Source: Cladochytrium replicatum
Lineage: Eukaryota; Chytridiomycota; Chytridiomycetes; Cladochytriales; Cladochytriaceae
Assembly: GCA_025526935.1 (NCBI GenBank)
Contig: JAHLKD010000025.1
Span: 248,001-312,000 of the forward strand
Reading direction: 5' to 3'
DNA length: 64,000 nt
Shown here: piece by piece, positions 6,411 through 63,066 of the stretch
How the letters are laid out: every line of letters begins with the position of its first letter
How positions within the stretch are numbered: the stretch's first letter is position 1
Made by a program: the position numbers and the translations under genes
The notes under the pieces: model-generated
What the model was told of the DNA's origin: nothing
Seen by the model: the letters and a program-made list of their open reading frames with translations, nothing else
Database searches by the model: none

Positions 6411-7520
6411 TTCTCTGATTTTCTGCACCAGTGCTTGCATGTCTTGAAAACGGATCATAGCAGTGTGCAGAACCTCTTCGTGGATTGCCGTGACTTTCTC
6501 GTCTCCCTCTTTCGCAGCCTCCTTCACTTCTTCTGGGAAGACTGCAGCATATGCGCTTCGACCAAAGTCCTTCACTTCTTCTGGGATCACTGCAGCATAT
6601 GCGCTTCGACCAAAGTCCTTCACTTCTTCTGGGATCACTGCAGCATATGCGCTTCGACCAAATCCTGCGCAACTTTGTTTGTGATCAACTTCAACGCAAG
6701 AACCTTCATGTTGCAGTGTCGCGCAACGGTGATCTCTGAAACAGATGACATTCCAACAGCGTCGGCCCCAACATAGTTGCAAAGGAATCTGCATTCCGAA
6801 CGGGTCTCGAACGACGGACCACCTACGAAAACGTATACACGTTCCCCGAGCACTTAGTGGTCGTGAGGAACCGTTCCGGGTCCAGAAACGGGAGACAGTC
6901 CGCCGAGAGTTGCCTGATTCTTCGGGCAGGTTTGAAGCGAGACACCGCAAGTCAAAGTCGTAAGCAGTTGAAACGGCTGGGAAACGACGGCCGAATTCCG
7001 AGATATTACGACCGACGAGTGGGTTGTTTCCCGAAAGACCGGGAAGTGATACGAGGTCGGAGATCACAATGTCCCCGACTCTGAAATCGGGTTTCAAGCC
7101 ACCGGATGCGTTGGTGACGATGAGTACATCGACACCGGGCAGCTTCATTACACGGCACGGCGAAGGTGGTGTGCACCAACGGATGCCCTGCGATACAGAG
7201 AACATGGGGCTATGTCATTGGAAATTTGCTATGCGCACCAACGGAAATGTGGTCACCACGCCTTCCCATTATTGCAACCACATTTTTCTTGCCGAGAGAG
7301 CCGAAAACCAGCTTGCCCGCATGTCCAGGAACTGAAAAGAGAAGAACAGCAAACGTGAGAAACGATTGGTGCCATTGAAATCAATATATACCGTTGCTTG
7401 CAGGGACGCTCGGAATATCCTGTGCATTTCAATCGAAAACTGGAGTGTTGTTAGATCAAATGCGTTGTGAACCATTCCACCGTACCGTGTACTCAACCCG
7501 ACAGTTCGAGTGAGAGAGTG
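6411..7520 (-). pseudogene. Purine nucleoside phosphorylase (PNP), frame-disrupted
   Basis: PNP cleaves purine nucleosides with phosphate in the cytosolic purine salvage pathway. Family blocks appear in order on the minus strand but in different frames. They are YGGMVHNAFD near 7460, VPGHAGKLVFGSLGKKN near 7330-7270, GHPLVHTTFAV near 7170, then VDVLIVTNASGGLKPDFRVG and ISDLVSLPGLSGNNPLVG (7120-7060). Next come [17 protein letters not shown] (6835-6785) and [19 protein letters not shown] (6770-6715), then [11 protein letters not shown], and finally HEEVLHTAM with QALVQKI. The phosphate-site, GGPSFET and NKV motifs are recognisable. At least three frame changes lie inside otherwise conserved blocks and do not match intron consensus, so the gene looks decayed. 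No clear stop follows the last block; the frame reads into the 5' end of the neighbouring ankyrin-like gene. A 48-bp unit is triplicated inside it (separate entry). One or two genuine introns are probable near 7210-7290. Confidence 0.75.
6522..6665 (-). repeat. 48-bp tandem triplication inside the PNP relic
   Basis: Three head-to-tail copies of a 48-bp unit begin at 6522, 6570 and 6618. The unit starts cttcacttcttctggga on the plus strand. Read on the minus strand it encodes [16 protein letters not shown] three times in frame, where the family has one such segment between NKVAQD and the HEEVL helix. The copies differ at only one or two bases (gaagac versus gatcac), so the expansion is recent. 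Confidence 0.9.
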
Positions 7521-20468: not shown

Positions 20469-21531
20469 TCACTGCAACAGTTCGACGGCGTCGAACTCCT
20501 TCGCGAGCTGCGGGAAAATACGACGTCGCTTCTCGACCCATCGTGGAACGAATCGCCAGACCGCATTCTTGCCCTTCTTGTCCTTAGTGCGAACTGCGCG
20601 ACGACGAGCATTGTCGAACCTGCAAGAAAATTTGAGTCAGACGCATGTCATCAGGATAATTTTACACTCACCAGTGCATGACCTGGTTGTCCTCGGTCTT
20701 GGTTTGCTCCATGAGACTCTGCTTCTCGTGCTTGTCGGGGTAAGGGTGACGGTAGTGCTTGAGCAACCATCGCACAAAGACTTCCTCGACTTCCGGAGGG
20801 TGGTTTGCACGTCCACGAGCCCGCGATGCTGCGCTCTTGTGAGCAACGGGCGATCGGGGAGATTCGGCGTCCCCATCCTCTTCATCGTCCTCAGCGTCGT
20901 CGGTCTTCGACTGCGAGTCCGCAATCGAAGGCGACTCAACTGTAGACAAGGCAGGAGATCCAACGGAGGAAACAGGGGTTCCAGGAGACTTAGGAGGAGG
21001 GGTTGGGCTCTGAGCGGGGGCGTTGAACGAAAGCAAACCATCGGCGTCGAGGCCACAGTCCGTAGGGATTGGAGTCGAAGAAAGCGAAGCAGGGGCAGGG
21101 AGCTCGAGACCAAACAGGAACGGTGAGACCAAGCTTGCGGGAGAGATCATGCTTGCTGGAGTTGCCATCATCAGGAAGGTCGGGTCGATCGGAGTGGCGG
21201 CGTACAGCTCAGCAAGATCCTGACCATAGATGCTCTCAACCGGGAATTCGAAGGGCGACAATAACGGGGTCGCTCCGGTGGCGTCGAACATCGGCGAAAA
21301 AGCAGATCCGGCGGGGATCTGAGGGAAGCCCAGACCGAGCAATTGAGACTGTTGCTGCCATTCATCGAAGAGCGTCGGCTGGGCGAGCTGTGGGGGGGAT
21401 GATGCACTTGTCGAAGGAGTGTCGAGGAGAGTGTATGGAGATGATGGAGTTGGCACCACGAAGTTGTGGGGGAGATACAGGAGCGGTGAGCGCTTCTGGT
21501 AAGACAGGGTAGGTAGTGGTGATGCGATCAT
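20469..21531 (-). CDS. TALE-class (KN) homeodomain transcription factor
   Basis: This is a nuclear DNA-binding protein. Start is MIASPLPTLSYQKR, the first ATG in frame at 21529-21531. The first 220 residues are Pro/Ser/Ala-rich (activation-domain-like). They are followed by an acidic stretch, DDAEDDEEDGDAESPRSP, and a basic patch. The C-terminal homeodomain reads NHPPEVEEVFVRWLLKHY, then RHPYPDKHEKQSLMEQ, then QVMHWFDNARRRAVRTK. The three-residue loop extension around HPYPD and the recognition helix WFDNARRR, with Asn51 and Arg53 present, are diagnostic of the TALE class. A 52-nt intron (20620-20671) splits the W codon in the recognition helix, a position seen in other homeobox genes. After the domain the protein ends with VWRFVPRWVEKRRRIFPQ and ELLQ before TGA at 20469-20471. 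In fungi TALE factors act in mating-type or developmental regulation; the target here is unknown. Confidence 0.92.
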
Positions 21532-22116
21532 TGTGGATGGTAGACAGGTTGCGCTAATGAGTTGACAGCTGGGGTGGAAAGGAGAATGACAGACAGACGG
21601 GGAGGGAAGGGTAGATATGGACGGGAACTGGTTAGAATGACGGATCGGATGACAGGTTATGCTACGGCAGATGACAGAGAGGAAATTATAAAGGAGGGGC
21701 AGGACGCACAAGCCAGCCGGAGCGCACAGACCATCTTGAAGTACACATCCCTTACCTTGTCTGAGTGTGGATCAAATGGTGATTAGAGATTGTGAAACGA
21801 TCACAGTAAAGACAGAAGGAAGGTTGACGGGATGTCCAACGCTCTTAAAGAAAGTTGACCCGCGCAATTAGCCCAGAATGGAAGGCGTCTACGATTAAGA
21901 AAACAAAGACTACGAAGAGCGGAGGCACTGCCAAGCTGTGCCCTGAAACAAAAAATAAGGATGGCACCGCCACTGGTGACTGCTGGGGATGAGAACCGTG
22001 CACTTGGCTTGCTCTGCACCCGACCCTCGCAGGTTGGCAACAACAACACCACTCCAGTTTCAATAAACACGACTTTAACCCACCGTAACACCGCGAGCCC
22101 TGTCGACGGACATTCT

Positions 22117-40625: not shown

Positions 40626-42944
40626 TGCACTCCCCAGCTATCATGTATGTGGACGCAGATTATGCCAAAGCAACGCATCTAACTTTTTCTTCTCAAGTCC
40701 CCAGCATAACATCAGACTGGTAGTTGTCCTAGTCGGCTTGCCCGCGAGGTGATTTAGCATGCTTTTTTTTGGGCTCCTCATGTTTGATTCATTTGGGCGT
40801 GATTTTTGATGTACTTAAGAGGCAAAACCTACATCTCTCGGAAGATCGCCCGGTACCTTGCATGGTTAGGATATGTTACCCGCATCTTCAACGTTGGAAA
40901 CTACCGTCGAGATGCTTTTGGAGCATCTGTTCCCCATGAGTTTTTTAACCCAACCAACGAGGAGTTCTCCAAGAGACGTTTTGAAGTCGCTTTGATGGCG
41001 CTTGACGACGTGCTCCGATGGTTTGGAGTTGACGAACCGCACAGCGAAAGTGATAGTCGCGAGCGGGTATCACAAGCCATGGCTTCTCTTTCGCTGGACA
41101 CAAAGAACCACGGGAAGCCACAGCCGGCCTTTCTGAAGAACAAGCCAGTGGTGTTCCGTGGGATTGGCATTGCCACGTCTACATCTGATCTTCGAGCGAA
41201 CGCTACGTCCCCAGGTGAAGGTGCTCATGGTGGAGTTGCCGTGTACGACGCGACCAACTCAACGAAGGAAAGGAGGAAGATTATCTTGGACAAGTTGACT
41301 TCCCACGGAATTCAAGTCATGTTTGTAGAGAGCATATGTGAAGATGAAGATGTTGTTCTGAACAACATTCGAGAGGTATGGGGAGCGACACCTGGTTTGT
41401 ACAGGGTATATCCTGAATCGCATAAAGGTCAAGATATCATCTCCGGATTACGTTGGAGTAGATCCTGAACTGGCTGCACAGGATTTTATGCAGCGAATTA
41501 AGCACTACGAGAAAAGCTATGAACCTATTAGTGTCGACGAGAACGGAGGCGACATGCCAATGGTCAAGTTGGTCAACGTCGGCTCACAAGTCATTGTGAA
41601 CAAAATCCAGGGATATCTGCAGTCACGGATCGTATATTTCCTTATGAACCTCAACATTACCCCGCGTCACATCTACTTCTCTCGTCACGGTGAATCGATG
41701 TACAATGTTGAAGGGAAGCTTGGTGGTGACTCGGATTTATCTCCTCGCGGCCGGCTCTTTGCAAAGAAACTGCCAGATTTAATTGTGGAGCAAATTAAGA
41801 AGAATAATGACCAGAAGCTAACTGTATGGACCAGTACGTTGCGCAGAACAATTCAAACTGCCGAGTTCTTGCCATACCCTCAGATTCAGTGGAAACATTT
41901 GGATGAGCTGGATTCCGGGGTCTGTGACGGCTATACATACGAAGAAATTAGCCAAATGTTTCCGAACGACTTTCAACAACGAGACTCGGACAAGTACAAC
42001 TACAGGTGGGTCTTGAAGCTGGCTGTGACAAGCGAGACTAAACATTGACGACTTTGGCTTGGTAAAGGTATATTGGAGGTGAATCATATCGTGATTTGGT
42101 CCAGCGATTGGGTAGGCTGAAGTTCAGCAGCCACTTCTAGTAGCTGATCAAATTTGATCAAATGCATTCGTATAGAACCGGTTATCATGGAGCTTGAGCG
42201 CCACCACGAACCTGGCCACAGCCTTTTGATTATTGGTCATCAAGCCGTTTTGCGTTGCATTTACGCCTACTATATGAATTACTCACACGAGGAGTTGCCT
42301 TACTTGAAGATTCCACTCCACTCAGTCGTCAAAATCACTCCAAAAGCGTACCACTGTGTGGAGGAGCGGTAGGCTTTTAAATTATATACTGGAATCCCAA
42401 TAGTGACAATTGGTCCGTTGACTTTGCTAGCTACAAGCTCGATGTTCCTGCGGTAAACACTCATCGCGACAAAGGCTCGCCCAGTGTCTCCCCGACTGGA
42501 CCAAGCATGCCTTTGCAAGACCTTGCGATCGCCCGACCCTCAAGCTCATTACCTCAACTCAGTTCGATCGCTCCAAGCTCCACCACACCGAACCCCAATT
42601 CGCCCGGCGTCAACAACGTCATCCCGAAGCCGGGTGGGAACAATGGGCCAGGACAATCCCCGCTTCGTCACGCCGTCAATTCTCCCAGAGTTGGAGCGTC
42701 TGCTGTCAACGGTCGTCGGCGCTCAATAACATCGCCGCAGTACATGGGAACGCATTTGACGGCAGCTTCTTCACAGGAGACATCTGTTGTTGATTCGGTA
42801 GAGCAGTTCCATGAGGAGCACTATGAAGAGGCGTCGAAGGAAGCGGACATTGATGGAACGACAGATGTTGCTCAGCCCGCTTCACCGTCACCAAGGTCCC
42901 GAGCTTCAATGGATCAGAATCGGAAAGAGTACTTCCAGACATGA
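40626..42944 (+). CDS. 6-phosphofructo-2-kinase / fructose-2,6-bisphosphatase
   Basis: This bifunctional cytosolic enzyme sets the level of fructose 2,6-bisphosphate, the switch between glycolysis and gluconeogenesis. The kinase P-loop is split by an intron: [11 protein letters not shown] then [18 protein letters not shown]. The kinase domain continues with [40 protein letters not shown] and [20 protein letters not shown], then [20 protein letters not shown]. The bisphosphatase domain carries the phosphohistidine motif [28 protein letters not shown], the acid in [17 protein letters not shown], and the second His in [18 protein letters not shown]. An intron inside RREVxKI and three later ones all keep phase. 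The C-terminal 170 residues are Ser/Pro/Asn-rich and disordered (likely phosphoregulated) and end NRKEYFQT. The N-terminal exon is uncertain, so the start is approximate. A region of tight hairpins follows the stop. Confidence 0.92.
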
Positions 42945-47257: not shown

Positions 47258-48357
47258 TTACGCATCTTCACCGATAGCTTGCAACAGCGACTCCACATCC
47301 TTCACCCCGTCCACGTAGTACAACGCCTCCGTCTGCTTCTTCCCCACCGTCACCGTGTAGAAAGGAATCCCCGCATTCCTAAACATTGCAAGGTTCAACC
47401 CGACCGCAGGCGACGTCGTCGGTTTCGACCCGTTCTTCGTGTCGGCGGGTGCGACTCCGGCGTTCGCGACCGCAGTGACGCCAAAGGTCTCGTGGAGTGT
47501 ACTGAAGACCACTTCGTCGGTCTTCCCGTCGCCGATGCAGAGGAGGAAGTCGCATTCGGAGCCCAGGAGTGCACCGTCTTCGGAAACGAGAGAGTGCAGG
47601 ATGGTCTCGGGGGACAGCTTGGTTTCGGGGTCGGAGAGGCGGGGTTTGGAGGCGAGGTGTGCTTGGGCGTTTGTTGGGGGGATGTCGTGGTCCTTTAAGA
47701 TCGCACGGGCGGCGGAGGCTTTGTCGACTGTGGAGGGTCGGAGTTCAAGAGTGCGGTTGCCGAGAATGATCTGTTGAAAAGTTCGGTTAGGCAAAGATAA
47801 AGTTCATCTGAGAGTGAATTACTCACCGAAACAGCCATGTGGGTCAAAATCTTCTCAAGGTTGACCTGCAGCTCTGCTGCTTGCCAAGACCCGAATTCAG
47901 GGTCGGCGTTACGATAGTGCCACGTAAGGTTGATCTCTTTCTCCTCGATGAACGACCCTGGGGTTCGCTCAGTGTAGTGCATGAAGAGGGGGCGGATCGT
48001 TTCACGCCACGAAGAGTCAACTTGATCTACCAAAGGATACCATCCGTTGTTCTTGCGTCGATTTGTCATGGCTCCTTCATTATCAGTGGAGAATCCGGCA
48101 ACGTCCACACCACCGAAATCTTCGCCGAGACTGGATGGATGGCGGTAAAAACAGCCGTGTTCCGCGGAAAGACCTACACCAGTCTGGGCGAACCAGTTGT
48201 CAAGATGGATGCGCGAGCGGCCAGAAATGATGTAGATGTACACATCTGGTTTGGAGGCAATCTTCTTCAGGAGCATTAGAAGTGCGGTGGATGGCTTGGC
48301 GAACTCTGGGAGTTTGTGGGATGTTGTAAGGGTTCCGTCGTAGTCCAGGAAAATGAC
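47258..48357 (-). pseudogene. Trehalose-6-phosphate phosphatase domain lacking its 5' exons
   Basis: The enzyme domain dephosphorylates trehalose 6-phosphate (HAD superfamily). The reading frame begins at an apparent splice acceptor (CACCATTCAG at 48358) with VIFLDYDGTLTT, the DxDGT nucleophile motif. It continues VYIYIISGRSRIHLDNWFAQ, GLSAEHGCFYRHP and SFIEEKEINLTWHYRNADPE. After one intron come IILGNRTLELRPSTVDKAS, CDFLLCIGDGKTDEVVFSTL (motif IV GDGxTD) and FYTVTVGKKQTEALYYVDGV, ending AIGEDA with TAA at 47258-47260. The domain itself is intact and all catalytic motifs are present. In fungi this domain normally follows a glycosyltransferase-20 synthase domain in one polypeptide. Here no ATG or synthase exon exists in the 75 bp before the next gene's stop at 48433. 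The gene therefore looks 5'-truncated, unless a first exon lies beyond the neighbouring gene. Confidence 0.75.
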
Positions 48358-48432
48358 CTGAATGGTGAAATTAAGGCAGCTGCTCAATGAATATGAAAAT
48401 TGCAGTAATTCTAGAGATCTTTCAACCCTTGC

Positions 48433-52991: not shown

Positions 52992-55040
52992 ATGGCTGAT
53001 CGTCGAGTGTTGAAATACGAATCTCCTGCTCATCAAGAGGTTAAACCCGACATCAGCGAAACTCTGCTCGAGCTGAAGAGATCTCTGCCGTTTCTCCCAG
53101 GCCATCAGTTTGACATTGATAAGGTAGAAGATCCGTTCGACTGTGCTGTGTTTGAACATAAGCAGATTCTCCCCCATCATAGGAAATCCCAAGCCTTTGA
53201 TTACTGCAATGGGGTCGCCGTCTTCAAGGAAGAAGCTCCAGGGATAGGTATTTTACAGTTTTTCTCCGAATAAGTCTCGGAAATCACTGATTGCGGTCCA
53301 GGCGGAATACCTTTGACTGGTCAAGAGGAGGTCAAAGTTCACACGTCCTTGGAGATCTATCCGCACATGGATGGGGTTGGAATCAGCGTGCCTGCCTGGG
53401 TAGCCTTTGATCAGAAGGTTTGAGAAAAAATTAACCAGATTTTCAAAGAATTCTGAGGATCTGCCGTAGGTGCTGAGATTCTATGCGTACTTCCAAGAAG
53501 CTGTCCATGAAAAGCGCGAAGAGCAGTATCGTGTTCGAAAGTATGCAAGGCCATCTACTGCCACGATCTATTTAACGATTGTGCACTACAGAGTGAACAT
53601 CTATTTCTACCTTGAAGACGACACTATCCATGTCAGTGAGCCAAAGACTCAAAATAGTGGAATTCCTCAGGGTATGAACTGATGTACGTAGAGTTTTGAG
53701 GGTCTCAATTCCTCATTTTTCAGGAACATTGATAAGACGCCACCGTATTCCCAAGGCGGATTCGGTGAAAGGACAACACTACATTGTCACTGATTTGAAT
53801 GTTGAGAAAGAAGTCACTTTCTATTCTCGAACTTTCAAGATTATCGGATGTGATGGATTCACCAGGGTTTGTTCAAATGATTCAGTCCACACTTCAATTG
53901 CTCATGTGATTCTTCGCCAAATAGGATTTCTTGGGCGCTCTAGGAATTGAAGTACCGAAGGGTCAAGAGTTTCCAAAGGATCCCTATGAGACCCACCGCT
54001 CTGAAATGTTGTCTCGAATCAAGAAGACATTGCAATCAAACACAAAACCACACATTTCGCCTCTCAAGACGTTTCTTGAAAACGATCGCCGGGTTCTTCG
54101 TTTCTACTGTGTGTGGGACGATACCAACAGTGTGTTTGGCGATGTGCGTCACATGGTCATCCACTATTACCTCAGCGACGACACAATCGAGATTCGCGAA
54201 GCGATTCCGCCCAACAGCGGCAGGGAGCATAACACGTTGTTCTTGAGACGCTGTCGCCTCCCCAAACGCTTCCACAGCAACAGTCTTGGGTTTACCCAGA
54301 ACTCAAACATCCCCAATAGCGCGCATCTGAATCCGAACGGGGAGACCGGGGATGAGTTTTACACTGACCGGGACCTGATGATTGGTTCGGTGCTTCATCT
54401 CTATGGTCGACCCTTTGTGATCTGTGACTGCGATGAGTTTACAAAGGAATACTACCGTGAAACGTATGGCCTTGAGAACTTTGATCCTCTGCGCATCGAG
54501 GACTACGATGTTGTAGAGGAGAACAGAGCGCAGGAATTGATGTCGTTTTTCCCTATCGCGGCTGAGAAAGCAAACGAATCTTCCTCGCTTGCTATCCCGT
54601 CGACTACAAACAACCTTCCCAAGAAGGATTTCAGAAAGATCTCCCAGTTTGATGGTGTCACACTTCGGTACTCGGCGACTTTAAAGTCTATGAAGCGGGT
54701 GGATCAGGACCGAAAGTTTGTCATTTCTTTGTACCCTGCTGACGACTCGATCACTGTTTTTGAGCCGCATCAGCGCAACTCTGGGATTATCGGTGGTAAG
54801 TTTTTAGAGAAGCAAAACATCCGAAAGTCCGACGGGACCTACTTCACTGTCCAAGACTTTTACATCGGTAATATGAACAGAAAGTTAAACCAAGTGCCTT
54901 GATTGATTATTGGTCTTGCAGGTGCCGAAGTTGAGTTTTATCATCATATTTTCGTCCTTGGTGGTGCCGATGATTATGCTGTCAAGTTTATGGATCAGCA
55001 CCCCGAAATGTTTCCCAAACACAGGCCAGCGGCGCAGTAA
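52992..55040 (+). CDS. EFHC/Rib72-type axonemal protein with three DM10 domains
   Basis: EFHC proteins are microtubule inner proteins of ciliary doublet microtubules. Start [20 protein letters not shown] is at 52992. The N-terminus has [20 protein letters not shown] and [20 protein letters not shown], the family signature. DM10 domain 1 is [20 protein letters not shown] with [20 protein letters not shown] and [12 protein letters not shown]. Domain 2 is [20 protein letters not shown] with [20 protein letters not shown] and [16 protein letters not shown]. Domain 3 is [20 protein letters not shown] with [20 protein letters not shown] and [20 protein letters not shown]. The linker [19 protein letters not shown] also fits. 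The protein ends HRPAAQ before TAA at 55038-55040, so the C-terminal EF-hand of the animal and algal proteins is absent. About five short introns; no frame break. It supports a zoospore-forming organism. Confidence 0.9.
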
Positions 55041-58200: not shown

Positions 58201-60190
58201 CGGACTTAATGCTTTTGTACCGCTGGAGAGCCTCTTGGACATCATCGCCAAGGCATCGTCTTCAGCTCTACGAATGAAAACGATCAATTAGATTATTCAC
58301 GAGTGGAGGTTTCCAAGCGTCTTTAAGAGTCAGCGGACGGCTCCGTGTCTGATGATGGATAAGCTTACCGGGACCTACTATTTGCTGATTTCAGGCGAAT
58401 AAGACTTCCTCAACGCTCCTTTCAAAAATCCTTGGAGAATCTCAAGAGGAAAGGCTATCCGGTCGATCGAATCTTGAACCTTACTACCAACAAGTTTGAA
58501 AGAAGCGGCGCTTTTGCAGGAGCAGAAGCAAATCAAACCGCAGAAGGAACTTCAGATTCAGCTTGAGGCCAGAAGAAGAAGGAGGCTTAACAGAAACTCG
58601 AGGAAGCATCGCGAGGGTCCGAGATTAAGCAAACACCAGTCAACGCGCCACAAGCCCCCATCATCCTCTACATCAACTCTCACGGAAACAGCAAGTTCAG
58701 TCGGTCAAAAGCCCAAGGAAAACACCAACGCGGTTCAAAGTCTGCCGAAAGACGCACAGAGGATCGGTGAAGCAGTCCAATCAATGTTCCCAGATGCAGA
58801 TTTGTCGCACGTGAAGAAGTTGGAGGGAGATTATGAATATGGGTGGTATGGTATTGTATTGTAATGTATTGTATTGTATTGTAGTGTATTGTAGTGTATT
58901 GTATTGTAGTGTATTATATTGTATTGCATTGTAGTGTATTATATTGTATTGTATTGTATTGTTTTGGATTGAATTGTGATGTATTGTATTGTATTGTATT
59001 GTATTGAGCCAAGGGCTGAAGCTTGGTCCTCTGAATGGAGGCAATCAATCGTGCGATTCAGAATATTTCAAATTCGATGCTTGACAAGGGCCATCCGAAA
59101 GGAAAAGTTAACAACCAACCACCACCGCTACCTGATCGGAAGGATGAACACGATGAAGTCACGCCAAAGACCGAGCCTAAACAAACGGAAGGGCCGGGGG
59201 AGATTGTTTAATCAGATTGGAAAGAATCTTGGGCTTTGGGAAACAGTGGAACAAGCAAAGCAGGGAGGTGACCTCAATGGAAGGAACTCTGTTTCGTCTG
59301 GACCAGGTTCTGGCGTTATGACGAAGGGCAACCCTCTGGATCAGATCAATCAACAATACCCGTACTCACTGAAGCGACACCTTTTTCAATCTCTTCAGAC
59401 ATTAGAGCCGAGTCGGGATTTGGCCTTTCGAGCGGAAATTCCAGGCGATCCATATCAACCTCCTCCCGGGACTCTTCCACAGAACTCACTTTCAGACGCA
59501 ACATGCTCAATTATTGCTGATAACAACCTCGTTCTTCATCCTGAACCCGTTGGTGCTGGGCCTTCTGAACCCGTGGTGCTGGGCCTTCTAAGAGGGGGAT
59601 TCCGTTCTATATCGACAAGCATGCCCTCGAAGAGGTCCAAACCTGAGTTGCCAGTACCCCAGAAGAACACGAGGGCTGCGCGTCGGTTTACGTTTATGCT
59701 CAATTTATTGGCAGAATTTGTGTTTGGTGTTCAGCCCGGGATCTACTACGACAATCGAGGCGAAACTGTCGTTCAACAAGAACCTCGCACTGTTTTTCAA
59801 TGCCAGATATTACATTGGATTGCATTTGAAGCAGACGGATTCAGGTCGGGTAGTTTCAACTTCTTCCGGTGGTACAAGTTACATTCCCGGGCAGCTCTTT
59901 CACGTCACCGCCAAGCCCGTCGACTGCTCCATTGGAGCTGTCTCTGGCCCGCCTTAGACGGAGGAGACAGAAACGGATGCCTATTGCTACTGGTTCCTGG
60001 TTTGCTGCCACGAACTTGGACACAATTTCGTCTCTGAACGCAACAGCCAACATGAGTTTTACATGTCGGTCTTTCGTACAGGTAACTAGCATACAGAAAT
60101 TTGAAGTTAATGTACTTTTCCATTGCAGAATTACTCATCCAGATGTTGGATCAAGAGAAGATCAAGCTGTGAGTTGTGCAATAGCCCATC
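55290..60190 (+). pseudogene. Fungal DUF3684 protein (HSP90/sacsin-like ATPase), extensively decayed
   Basis: DUF3684 proteins are large fungal proteins with an N-terminal HSP90-like ATPase and unknown role. Blocks in family order are RHLIDKILARFSAEFTEAS (about 55345), SNDAVRVII, FSIAEEPLVTYGNECMVCFW (about 55890-55950), and RRSQWTTFDLALREPIEVPE with FGRFLATSVAFTNKLRKIEV. Then come LYFEKKVEDPQPLPL, NKEMERTTKKRPSL and SMFDDLIPSPKECV, then GFPTHQTTGCAIQMASHLI and DCVDKTLNIFTKEVLFVPGL. Near 58395-58475 is RLPQRSFQKSLENLKRKGYP. The C-terminal part has FNKNLALFFNARYYIGLHLK (about 59775) and CYWFLVCCHELGHNFVSERN with QHEFYMSVF (to about 60075), which includes an HELGH metallopeptidase-like motif. 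Many frame changes and stops interrupt these blocks, so it is not functional as it stands. A pentanucleotide repeat interrupts it at 58851-59006. Confidence 0.8.
58851..59006 (+). repeat. GTATT pentanucleotide microsatellite
   Basis: About 150 bp of (GTATT)n with interspersed variants (gtaatgtatt, gtagtgtatt, gtattgcatt, gattgaattg). The purest runs are at its start and end. It sits inside the decayed DUF3684 gene. Confidence 0.95.
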
Positions 60191-60402: not shown

Positions 60403-63066
60403 ATGCTGACGAAACACTTCGCTTTCGCATTCGCCCTGTTACTTGCAACTGTTTCTATCACCACCGCAAGGCCTCAGGGTGGTGGTGACTCCGATGATGA
60501 TTCAAACTGGGTTCCTGGTTCTGGTGGAGGATCAACTAGCACGGGAAGCGGATCGACCGGAAGCACGTCACCGCCAGCAACTTCCCCTGCACCGCAACTA
60601 CAAGCCATTGCTATCCTTAAACCAACCACCGGGAATACTGCGGAGGGCACTGTTGTGTTCACACAGGTGTCATCGACAATTGTCGAGATTACCGTCTCAC
60701 TAACAGGAGTTTCTTCTGGTGCACACGGAATGTAAGTGGAAGCGGCAGTCGATCATTTTTGATGATTTTAACAATCGTACAGTCATATTCATGCTTTTGG
60801 AGACATATCCGATCCTGCGGGTCTGGCAAGTGGTTTGCACTACAATCCGACCAACCGCGAACACCGATGCCCAACTGGAGACGGAGCTCGCTATGGAGGT
60901 CATGTCGGTGACATTGGCAACATTACCGCTGATGCTTCTGGAACGGTCAAAACTACCGTTAGAGTCTCACACATGTCGCTTCTTCAGCAATCACCCTTCT
61001 TTATTGTCGGTCGCGCAATTATCGTCCACTCCGCATTCGATGATTGCATAGTATGTATATCTCATTGAACGTGTTGAAATTGGTGCTGACGTTTCAAATA
61101 ACAGACCCAACCCACTGGAAATTCTGGTGGACGACTGTCACAGGGTGTGATCGGCTGGCAAACCGAGCGCGGCCGGTCGATTGTCAGCATTTCACAGTCT
61201 CCCGACCCCAACCGTCCGATCGACGCCATCGCTGTCCTCACACCCTCGAACGGCTCAGACGTGAGGGCGGTTGTTCTGTTCCACCAAGACAGTATCGATA
61301 GCCCGCTCATGATCTACGCTAACATTACCGGACTCCCCGCTGCCACCGTACACGCCTGGCATATACACGCGCTGGGTGACATATCCGACCCCAACGGAGC
61401 TAAACTCGGACTCCACTTTGACCCGTTCAACACTGGACGTCACGGGTGTGTGAGACTTAATCGCACACGTCACGCAGGCGATCTTTCCAACCTTCCCCCA
61501 GTCAGCGCTTCTGGCGTGATCTCTCAGTTTGTGACAGTCCTCGATAGCCCGAACATCCTGTCGCTCTACCGAGGCACACCTGGGTACTTTATCGGACGTG
61601 GCCTGATCATTCACCAGAACGTGGATGACTGTGTGTCACAACCTGTTGGCAACGCTGGTGGGAGATGGGCACAGGGTGTCGTCGGATACAGGAACTCTAC
61701 CATAAACACAGTCCAGCGCATCTCGTTCCGACCTCCTCGTTCTGCTAGCCCTGGTGGTCAAGGTGGAAGCTCCGGTGGAGGGGGAGGAAGTTCGAGCCCT
61801 GGTGGAGGAAGCAGCAGTGACGACTCGTCCCCTGAGAGCTCTTTCAGACCGTTTGGAGCTGCATCAAACAACTACGATTATGGATACGATGGCGACGATG
61901 GATACAGCGATGACTACTCTTACGATGGTGGTTACAATGACTACGGTGGAGATTACTACGACAACAGCTACGGTAGTTACGAAAGCGACTACGATAGCTA
62001 CGAAACTGGTTACGATGGGTACGGATCTGGCTACTCTGGCGATTACAGCAGCGGTGGCTATGATGCTGACTACGAGTCTGGTTACGATACCTCCTACGAC
62101 CAAACCTACGACTCGAACGATTCTGGGTACGACTCCCCGCCATATAACTCGCGCTGCGAAGACGAGTATCAAAGGACCGTACGCTCATGCCGCGCGATCC
62201 GCAACCGCAACACCGTCGAGAAGTGCGTTGAGCGAGCGGAAGAGGTGTTCCAGTACTGCTCTGGTCAAGGAGATGGATGGACCGAGTACGACATGCCGCC
62301 TGCAACTTCGTCGACCGACTCTTGTCAGGAAGGATACGAGCGTGCTATTAAGATTTGCAAGGAGAAGAGCTTGGGAGATGAGTGCACTAAGTCTGCTGAG
62401 TCGGGTTTGAAGAGCTGCGAGGCGCAATGGGGTGGCTCGAGCGGTGGATCAGGAGGCTCAGGAGGTGGTAGCGGTGGCTCATCTGGATCCGGCGGATCAA
62501 GCGGAAGCAGCGGGTCTGGAGGATCCAGTGGCGGTAGTGGAGGGTCAGGTGGATCAAGCAGTGGCAGCGGAGGGTCAAGTGGTAGTAGTGGTGGGTCTGG
62601 AGGGTCCAGTAGTGGCAACGGAGGAGGAGCGGCATCGTCGACAGACTCATGCCAGTTGACGTACGAGAACTCCATCAAGATTTGCGAAGGTGGCGGGTTG
62701 GGTCCAGAGTGTTTCCAAGCTGCAGAGACGTGGTTGGCGAACTGCAGGCAAATGAACGGCGGTGGATCAAGTGGTGGATCGGGCGGTGGTGGCTCAGGCG
62801 GAGGTGGTTCTGGAGGCAGCGGTGGGAGCGCTGGTGACCCACCGGTAAGCTCAACTTTTAGCGCCGCCGCACCACCACCGACCGAAACTGCGAGTGCTGA
62901 AGAAGCGCCCCCAGCCGAGACTTCCGCTTCAGTCGGTTTGGCATTCCCGACCGCTGCAGCAGCGGCTCTTCAAGTCGAAGCAGGCAGTGGAGCGTCACAC
63001 GCCATGTCGACATCCATGTGGGGAGTTGGCGTTGCGGTTCTTGTGCTTTGCGTTTTGGCGGTGTAG
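60403..63066 (+). CDS. Surface protein with two Cu/Zn-SOD domains, Tyr-rich region, three four-Cys repeats and likely GPI anchor
   Basis: Exons are 60403-60731, 60783-61050 and 61105-63066 (introns 51 and 54 nt), giving 852 residues. A signal peptide (MLTKHFAFAFALLLATVSIT) and a Gly/Ser linker precede SOD domain 1: AHGIHIHAFGDISDPAG, LHYNPTNREHRCP, GGHVGDIGNI and IIVHSAFDDC. Domain 2 has VHAWHIHALGDISDPNG, LHFDPFNTGRHGC, RHAGDLSNLP and LIIHQNVDDC. In each domain all six histidines and the zinc aspartate of Cu/Zn-SOD (superoxide dismutation) are present. The usual disulfide cysteines are replaced by an HxC/DDC pair. A Gly/Ser linker then leads to a Tyr/Asp/Gly-rich stretch (DYGYDGDDGYSDDYSYDGGY). 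Three cysteine modules follow (C-x10-C-x8/11-C-x10-C), the second and third separated by about 70 residues of Gly/Ser. The end (STSMWGVGVAVLVLCVLAV) is a GPI-anchor-type signal. It is probably a cell-wall or membrane antioxidant. Confidence 0.92.

Follow-up and report, generated by a model that had tools for sequence, protein, structure and literature searches.

A predicted GPI-anchored tandem Cu,Zn superoxide dismutase with relocated cysteines and a tyrosine-rich stalk in a zoosporic fungus

According to a 2026 review, fungal Cu/Zn superoxide dismutases (SODs) are exclusively intracellular, the extracellular SODs of fungi are Cu-only, Zn-free enzymes, and fungi have retained these extracellular SODs as single domains (PMC13017621). 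The fungal Cu-only SODs, of the Candida albicans SOD4/SOD5 type, combine the Sod_Cu fold with a reduced loop VII and are found outside the cell, either GPI-anchored or secreted (PMC13017621). They have a single domain, no Zn site and the usual SOD disulfide, in which a Cys of loop IV is joined to the Cys of a GxRxxCG motif. In animals and in Capsaspora, the Cu-only SOD repeat proteins (CSRPs) carry tandem Sod_Cu domains joined by short linkers in a secreted or GPI-anchored chain, with 4–12 repeats that lack the Zn site and of which the N-terminal ones are often dead (PMC13017621). Among bacteria, the Bacteroidetes Cu,Zn SOD 7b4o/7b4p, of which 7b4p was solved with Cu and Zn bound, and related SODs consist of a single domain, with the usual disulfide in most members.

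Here we describe a gene in a 64-kb stretch of Cladochytrium replicatum DNA (the window) whose product is probably, at about 0.7 on the evidence of its sequence, a surface enzyme that a zoosporic fungus secretes and GPI-anchors; its tethered pair of Cu,Zn-SOD domains would convert extracellular superoxide. The 852-aa protein is encoded by three exons on the + strand (60403–60731, 60783–61050 and 61105–63066) and was rebuilt by splicing the window sequence; the spliced coding sequence of 2559 nt runs from the start ATG at 60403 to the stop codon that ends at 63066. All parts of the architecture outlined in the first-pass annotation, namely two complete SOD domains, Gly/Ser linkers, a Tyr-Asp-Gly region, three Cys modules and a GPI-like tail, were recovered in the sequence and with Pfam (Table 1). 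That annotation had also chosen the right fungal comparison in the single-domain, GPI-anchored SOD of Candida (PMC13017621); the full Zn sites and the relocated cysteines of both domains had escaped it. Its view that the combination was unknown holds in part: animals already provide examples of tandem SODs that end in a GPI tail (PMC13017621), whereas the Zn-retaining pair, the moved cysteines and the stalk are undescribed in fungi in the literature searched. That literature, on chytrid SODs, two-domain SODs and chytrid dityrosine, contained no description of this architecture.

Table 1. Coordinates of the parts of the tandem SOD gene, as positions in the 64-kb window
Feature	Position	Strand	Details and basis
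ATG and predicted signal peptide, residues 1–22, MLTKHFAFAFALLLATVSITTA	60403..60468	+	Sequence; its 12-mer ranks second in hydrophobicity
N-terminal low-complexity Gly/Ser/Thr/Pro spacer, residues 23–61	60469..60585	+	Sequence
SOD domain 1, exon 1 part, residues 62 to start of 110	60586..60731	+	Pfam Sod_Cu, PDB matches
Intron 1	60732..60782	+	51 nt, GT..AG; retention gives an immediate stop
Exon 2, SOD domain 1 core: Cu ligands H111, H113, H129, H192; Zn ligands H129, H137, H150, D153	60783..61050	+	Alignment
Exon 2, SOD domain 1 core: new Cys C139, C198	60783..61050	+	Cys list
Intron 2	61051..61104	+	54 nt, GT..AG; in-frame stop if retained
Exon 3 start, end of SOD domain 1: rest of loop VII, catalytic R209, last strand	61105..61161	+	Sequence, alignment
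Interdomain linker, ~20 residues	61162..61221	+	Sequence, alignment
SOD domain 2, residues 239–396: Cu ligands H285, H287, H303, H369	61222..61695	+	Pfam 7.7e-25, alignment
SOD domain 2: Zn ligands H303, H312, H322, D325; R386; new Cys C314, C375	61222..61695	+	Alignment, AlphaFold2 model
Gly/Ser linker 1	61750..61830	+	Composition
Tyr/Asp/Gly-rich segment, 96 aa	61867..62154	+	Composition; no Pfam family
Cys module 1, C-x10-C-x11-C-x10-C (C550, C561, C573, C584)	62155..62259	+	Pattern, Cys list
Cys module 2, C-x10-C-x8-C-x10-C (C606, C617, C626, C637)	62323..62418	+	Pattern; AlphaFold2 helical hairpin
Gly/Ser linker 2	62431..62640	+	Composition, repeat scan
Cys module 3, C-x10-C-x8-C-x10-C (C715, C726, C735, C746)	62650..62745	+	Pattern, Cys list
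Gly/Ser linker 3	62758..62835	+	Composition
Ser/Thr/Pro/Ala-rich stretch before the tail, putative wall-spanning or O-glycosylated stalk	62836..62946	+	Composition
GPI-signal-like tail: small residues, then MWGVGVAVLVLCVLAV, stop	62980..63066	+	Most hydrophobic 12-mer of the protein

Sod_Cu (PF00080) was the sole Pfam family found in the protein, where it matched two stretches (E = 3.4e-59; profile score 199.5 bits over the two, against a gathering cut-off of 28.9), with domain 2 alone scoring 88.3 bits (7.7e-25). Both domains align over their full length with solved Cu,Zn SODs. Alignment to human and spinach SOD and to 7b4o showed that the Cu ligands H46, H48, H63 and H120 and the Zn ligands H63, H71, H80 and D83 (human numbering) are conserved in both, as are D124, D125 and the catalytic R143, represented here by R209 and R386. 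The signature of Cu-only SODs, a lost Zn-ligand His together with E110/D113, is absent, and both domains have His/His/His/Asp at the Zn site. Judged by ligand set, both are of the bimetallic Cu/Zn type and not of the Zn-free Cu-only type, and the complete Zn ligands in both domains rule out membership in the Cu-only SODs or the CSRPs. The protein thus differs from the fungal Cu-only SODs in having two domains, full Zn ligands and relocated cysteines, and from the CSRPs in having two intact, Zn-retaining domains; no stalk of Tyr or Cys-hairpin type has been described for CSRPs, unlike the protein here.

Loop VII is six residues shorter in both domains than in human or spinach SOD and equals that of 7b4o/7b4p; since 7b4o has this loop and is bimetallic, its shortness is compatible with a Zn site. 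The positive residues of SOD1 loop VII that steer superoxide are absent. By sequence, 7b4o/7b4p is the closest solved single-domain relative, with the same register of the Zn loop, while the best PDB sequence match of all is 6dtk, an engineered tandem dimer of human SOD1 with an interdomain span of 22 residues, compared with ~23 here. An AlphaFold2 model of domain 2 (pLDDT 88.6, pTM 0.84) likewise found its best structural match in 7b4p (Z 25.0, rmsd 1.5 over 148 residues). The next matches were ordinary Cu,Zn SODs at Z ~24, indicating a fold common to the whole SOD family. Domains 1 and 2 share 39% identity (E = 9e-36) and are sisters in trees (support 0.96 and 0.94), which places the duplication inside the gene, with active sites kept in both copies.

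Neither of the cysteines of the canonical SOD disulfide (C57–C146 or its bacterial equivalent) is present in either domain, as seen in both the alignment and the Cys list. Each domain has exactly two cysteines, at positions that align between the two: C139 and C314 lie two residues past the Zn ligand H71, and C198 and C375 directly follow D124–D125. In SOD1, D124 bridges H46 and H71, so the new cysteines are expected to be near each other, next to the Zn site. It is a natural inference that C139–C198 and C314–C375 form a moved disulfide that replaces the C57–C146 bond; the domain 2 model is less certain around these cysteines (block means 75 and 80). Among 159 bacterial and viral SODs scored, neither new cysteine occurred in any, while the usual C146 was present in 124; the new pair was likewise absent from all 34 loci from planctomycete genomes, some of which repeat earlier loci. 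Outside the tail the protein has 16 cysteines, every one of which belongs to a matched set (two in each SOD domain and four in each of the three modules), a pattern that would be expected if the protein is extracellular and oxidised; the one further cysteine, C848, sits in the tail, which GPI processing would remove. Loss of the canonical disulfide does not exclude a working enzyme, because many planctomycete SODs also lack it.

When all 12-mers of the protein are ranked by hydrophobicity, the top two begin at residues 841 and 6, and it is from this hydrophobic N-terminus and C-terminal tail that we infer secretion and GPI anchoring of the double SOD protein. Five of the six N-glycosylation sequons are located within the SOD part. 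The C-terminal half contains three modules of the pattern C-x10-C..C-x10-C, of which module 2 was predicted to be a helical hairpin (AlphaFold2 pLDDT 91.3). The module has no family in Pfam or NCBIfam, and the PDB held nothing significantly similar to it by profile or by fold; Luffin P1 was a weak match to its model. It resembles the alpha-hairpinins and CHCH hairpins in its predicted two helices, each with two cysteines and presumably joined by two disulfides; the spacing in those hairpins, however, is CX3C or CX9C rather than CX10C. No further copy of the SOD gene or of the Cys module was found within the 64-kb window.

A mechanism can be proposed in which the two Cu,Zn SOD domains, linked by ~20 residues, would sit at the distal tip of a stalk that is long and flexible and is made up of the Gly/Ser linkers, the acidic Tyr/Asp/Gly segment, three putatively disulfide-braced helical hairpins and the Ser/Thr/Pro/Ala stretch. 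This stalk would place the SOD domains within the wall or outside it, at a distance from the membrane. Cysteine oxidation and maturation would occur in the secretory pathway with no part played by CCS, the chaperone whose target is C57, and the domains would be metallated with Cu and Zn. The new disulfide would tie the Zn subloop to loop VII instead of forming the C57–C146 bond, domains 1 and 2 would pair in cis as a tethered dimer, and the anchored domains would convert extracellular superoxide to O2 and H2O2. The activity of domain 2 may be reduced, as this domain is the more diverged.

Other explanations can be set against this reading, beginning with the gene itself. Because the gene model was derived from genomic sequence only, it could be an artefact in which two adjacent genes, or a misread repeat region, have been joined on paper, and the first-pass annotation had pointed to separate transcripts for exons 1–2 and exon 3 as grounds for abandoning its proposal. 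SOD domain 1, however, is spread over all three exons, beginning in exon 1, with its core in exon 2 and the remainder of loop VII, the catalytic Arg and the last strand in exon 3, which goes on to encode all of domain 2 and everything downstream. Separate transcripts for the two SOD domains are very unlikely, since domain 1 is completed only by the opening codons of exon 3. Translation of splice variants gave an early in-frame stop whenever either intron was kept or exon 2 was skipped, so that an uninterrupted frame requires each of the three exons; we reject two genes or two transcripts because of these stops and because domain 1 is split. Exon 3 is moreover open over 654 codons, and the parts are not divided by any stop or start signal. 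Synonymous codons are mixed in the Gly/Ser and Tyr stretches, where DNA-level repeats are weak (73–86% match, 2–3 copies), which gives these stretches the look of maintained coding sequence, with no fresh repeat expansion. An artefact of the gene model is, on this evidence, scarcely credible. It is also improbable, although to a lesser degree, that the SOD domains are degenerate and act as structural or binding modules in the manner of the non-catalytic repeats of animal CSRPs: the divergence of domain 2 would fit such a role, but all ligands and the catalytic Arg are retained in both domains, unlike in inactive CSRP repeats.

The Tyr/Asp/Gly segment allows more than one reading, neither of which we consider likely enough to adopt. 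Its 96 residues include 25 Tyr, 21 Asp, 17 Gly and 16 Ser, with a further 3 Glu and a single Arg, and its predicted pI is ~4. Flexible Tyr-rich segments undergo cross-linking in other extracellular proteins, and with 25 Tyr in the same chain as two domains predicted to produce H2O2, the tyrosines might, as the first-pass annotation had suggested in outline, be coupled to dityrosine with SOD-made H2O2, by a peroxidase or by a Cu site acting as one, which would fix the protein in the wall or form an adhesive coat. This would add to the main explanation without excluding it, but we regard it as unlikely: among the ORFs scanned no cross-linking enzyme was found within or beside the gene, nothing relevant appeared in the literature searched on chytrids and dityrosine, and the equally strong Asp content would suit a metal-binding role, or that of an acidic spacer, just as well. 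It is possible, if still short of an even chance by some way, that the stretch instead collects Cu or Zn and supplies the SOD domains with it, or does no more than lengthen the stalk. The excess of 21 Asp and 3 Glu over one Arg, and the low pI that goes with it, would fit such a role, and the Cu-only SODs of fungi acquire their Cu extracellularly (PMC13017621); on the other hand, the segment has neither a known metal-binding motif nor a Pfam family.

For the anchored tandem Cu,Zn SOD that we favor, the wider consequences depend on its location. If the protein is anchored outside a fungal cell, the gene contradicts all three statements of the review on fungal SODs (PMC13017621), and Zn loss would not be the price of extracellular life in fungi. 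The moved Cys pair would, in addition, provide a natural test of the extent to which the conserved SOD disulfide, and CCS as its maker, can be replaced. A bolder proposal, that the gene represents an extracellular class of fungal SOD separate from the Cu-only lineage, bimetallic, dimeric in cis, with a moved disulfide that staples the Zn subloop to loop VII and frees the enzyme from CCS, possibly of bacterial origin and with a Tyr-rich stalk cross-linked by its own H2O2, is doubtful when taken as a whole.

Trees placed domains 1 and 2 inside the bacterial SODs and away from six eukaryotic SODs, with low inner supports and with no fungal or extracellular eukaryotic SODs included, so that horizontal transfer of the SOD domains from bacteria is offered here as a lead only. 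No close relatives with these exact domains were found in viral contigs or prokaryote genomes, where a broader alignment gave only general SODs, and phage and plasmid collections contained only single-domain bacterial SODs at 30–39% identity. One planctomycete locus (L191; genome G075, contig C72, 185–1087, - strand) encodes a 360-aa chain with a lipoprotein-like N-terminus; like the protein here, it has two bimetallic Sod_Cu domains with a short linker between them. This bacterial protein differs in its nearly identical domains, from a separate duplication, in its Cys pattern and in having no stalk. As judged from L191, whose duplication is independent, a tandem SOD alone is not unique to this gene; because that duplication was separate, tandem anchored bimetallic SODs would have arisen at least two times, which fits a benefit of tethering two SOD units at the surface. 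Other planctomycete SODs (L162, L163, L164, L161, L168–L171 and similar loci) have lost the usual disulfide cysteines, with GDI, GDV or GDL for GDC and GxRxx(C)G without its Cys, while keeping all metal ligands.

Several further features were seen in the window, in which spliceosomal introns are present. A GTATT pentanucleotide microsatellite of 32 copies (58846–59006) precedes the SOD gene by ~1.4 kb. Upstream of this is a fragment of a DM10-domain (EFHC1-like) gene (53925–54899, + strand, E = 1.5e-59), a marker of a flagellar protein family, and at 47698–48432 (- strand) a trehalose-phosphatase gene whose only strong PDB matches were 5dxl, 5dxi and 5dx9, which are fungal-type enzymes. A gene resembling 6-phosphofructo-2-kinase / fructose-2,6-bisphosphatase extends over two overlapping ORFs (40803–42045, + strand), and a fragment of a homeobox KN (TALE) gene is found at 20671–21771 (- strand). 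Taken together, the spliceosomal introns, the trehalose-phosphatase, the homeobox gene and the DM10 protein indicate a zoosporic fungal host. Finally, a purine nucleoside phosphorylase-like ORF (PF01048; 6123–7214, - strand) contains within its frame a 48-bp repeat of 3.1 copies at 97% identity (6520–6666), the coded unit of which includes (I/F)PEEVKE.
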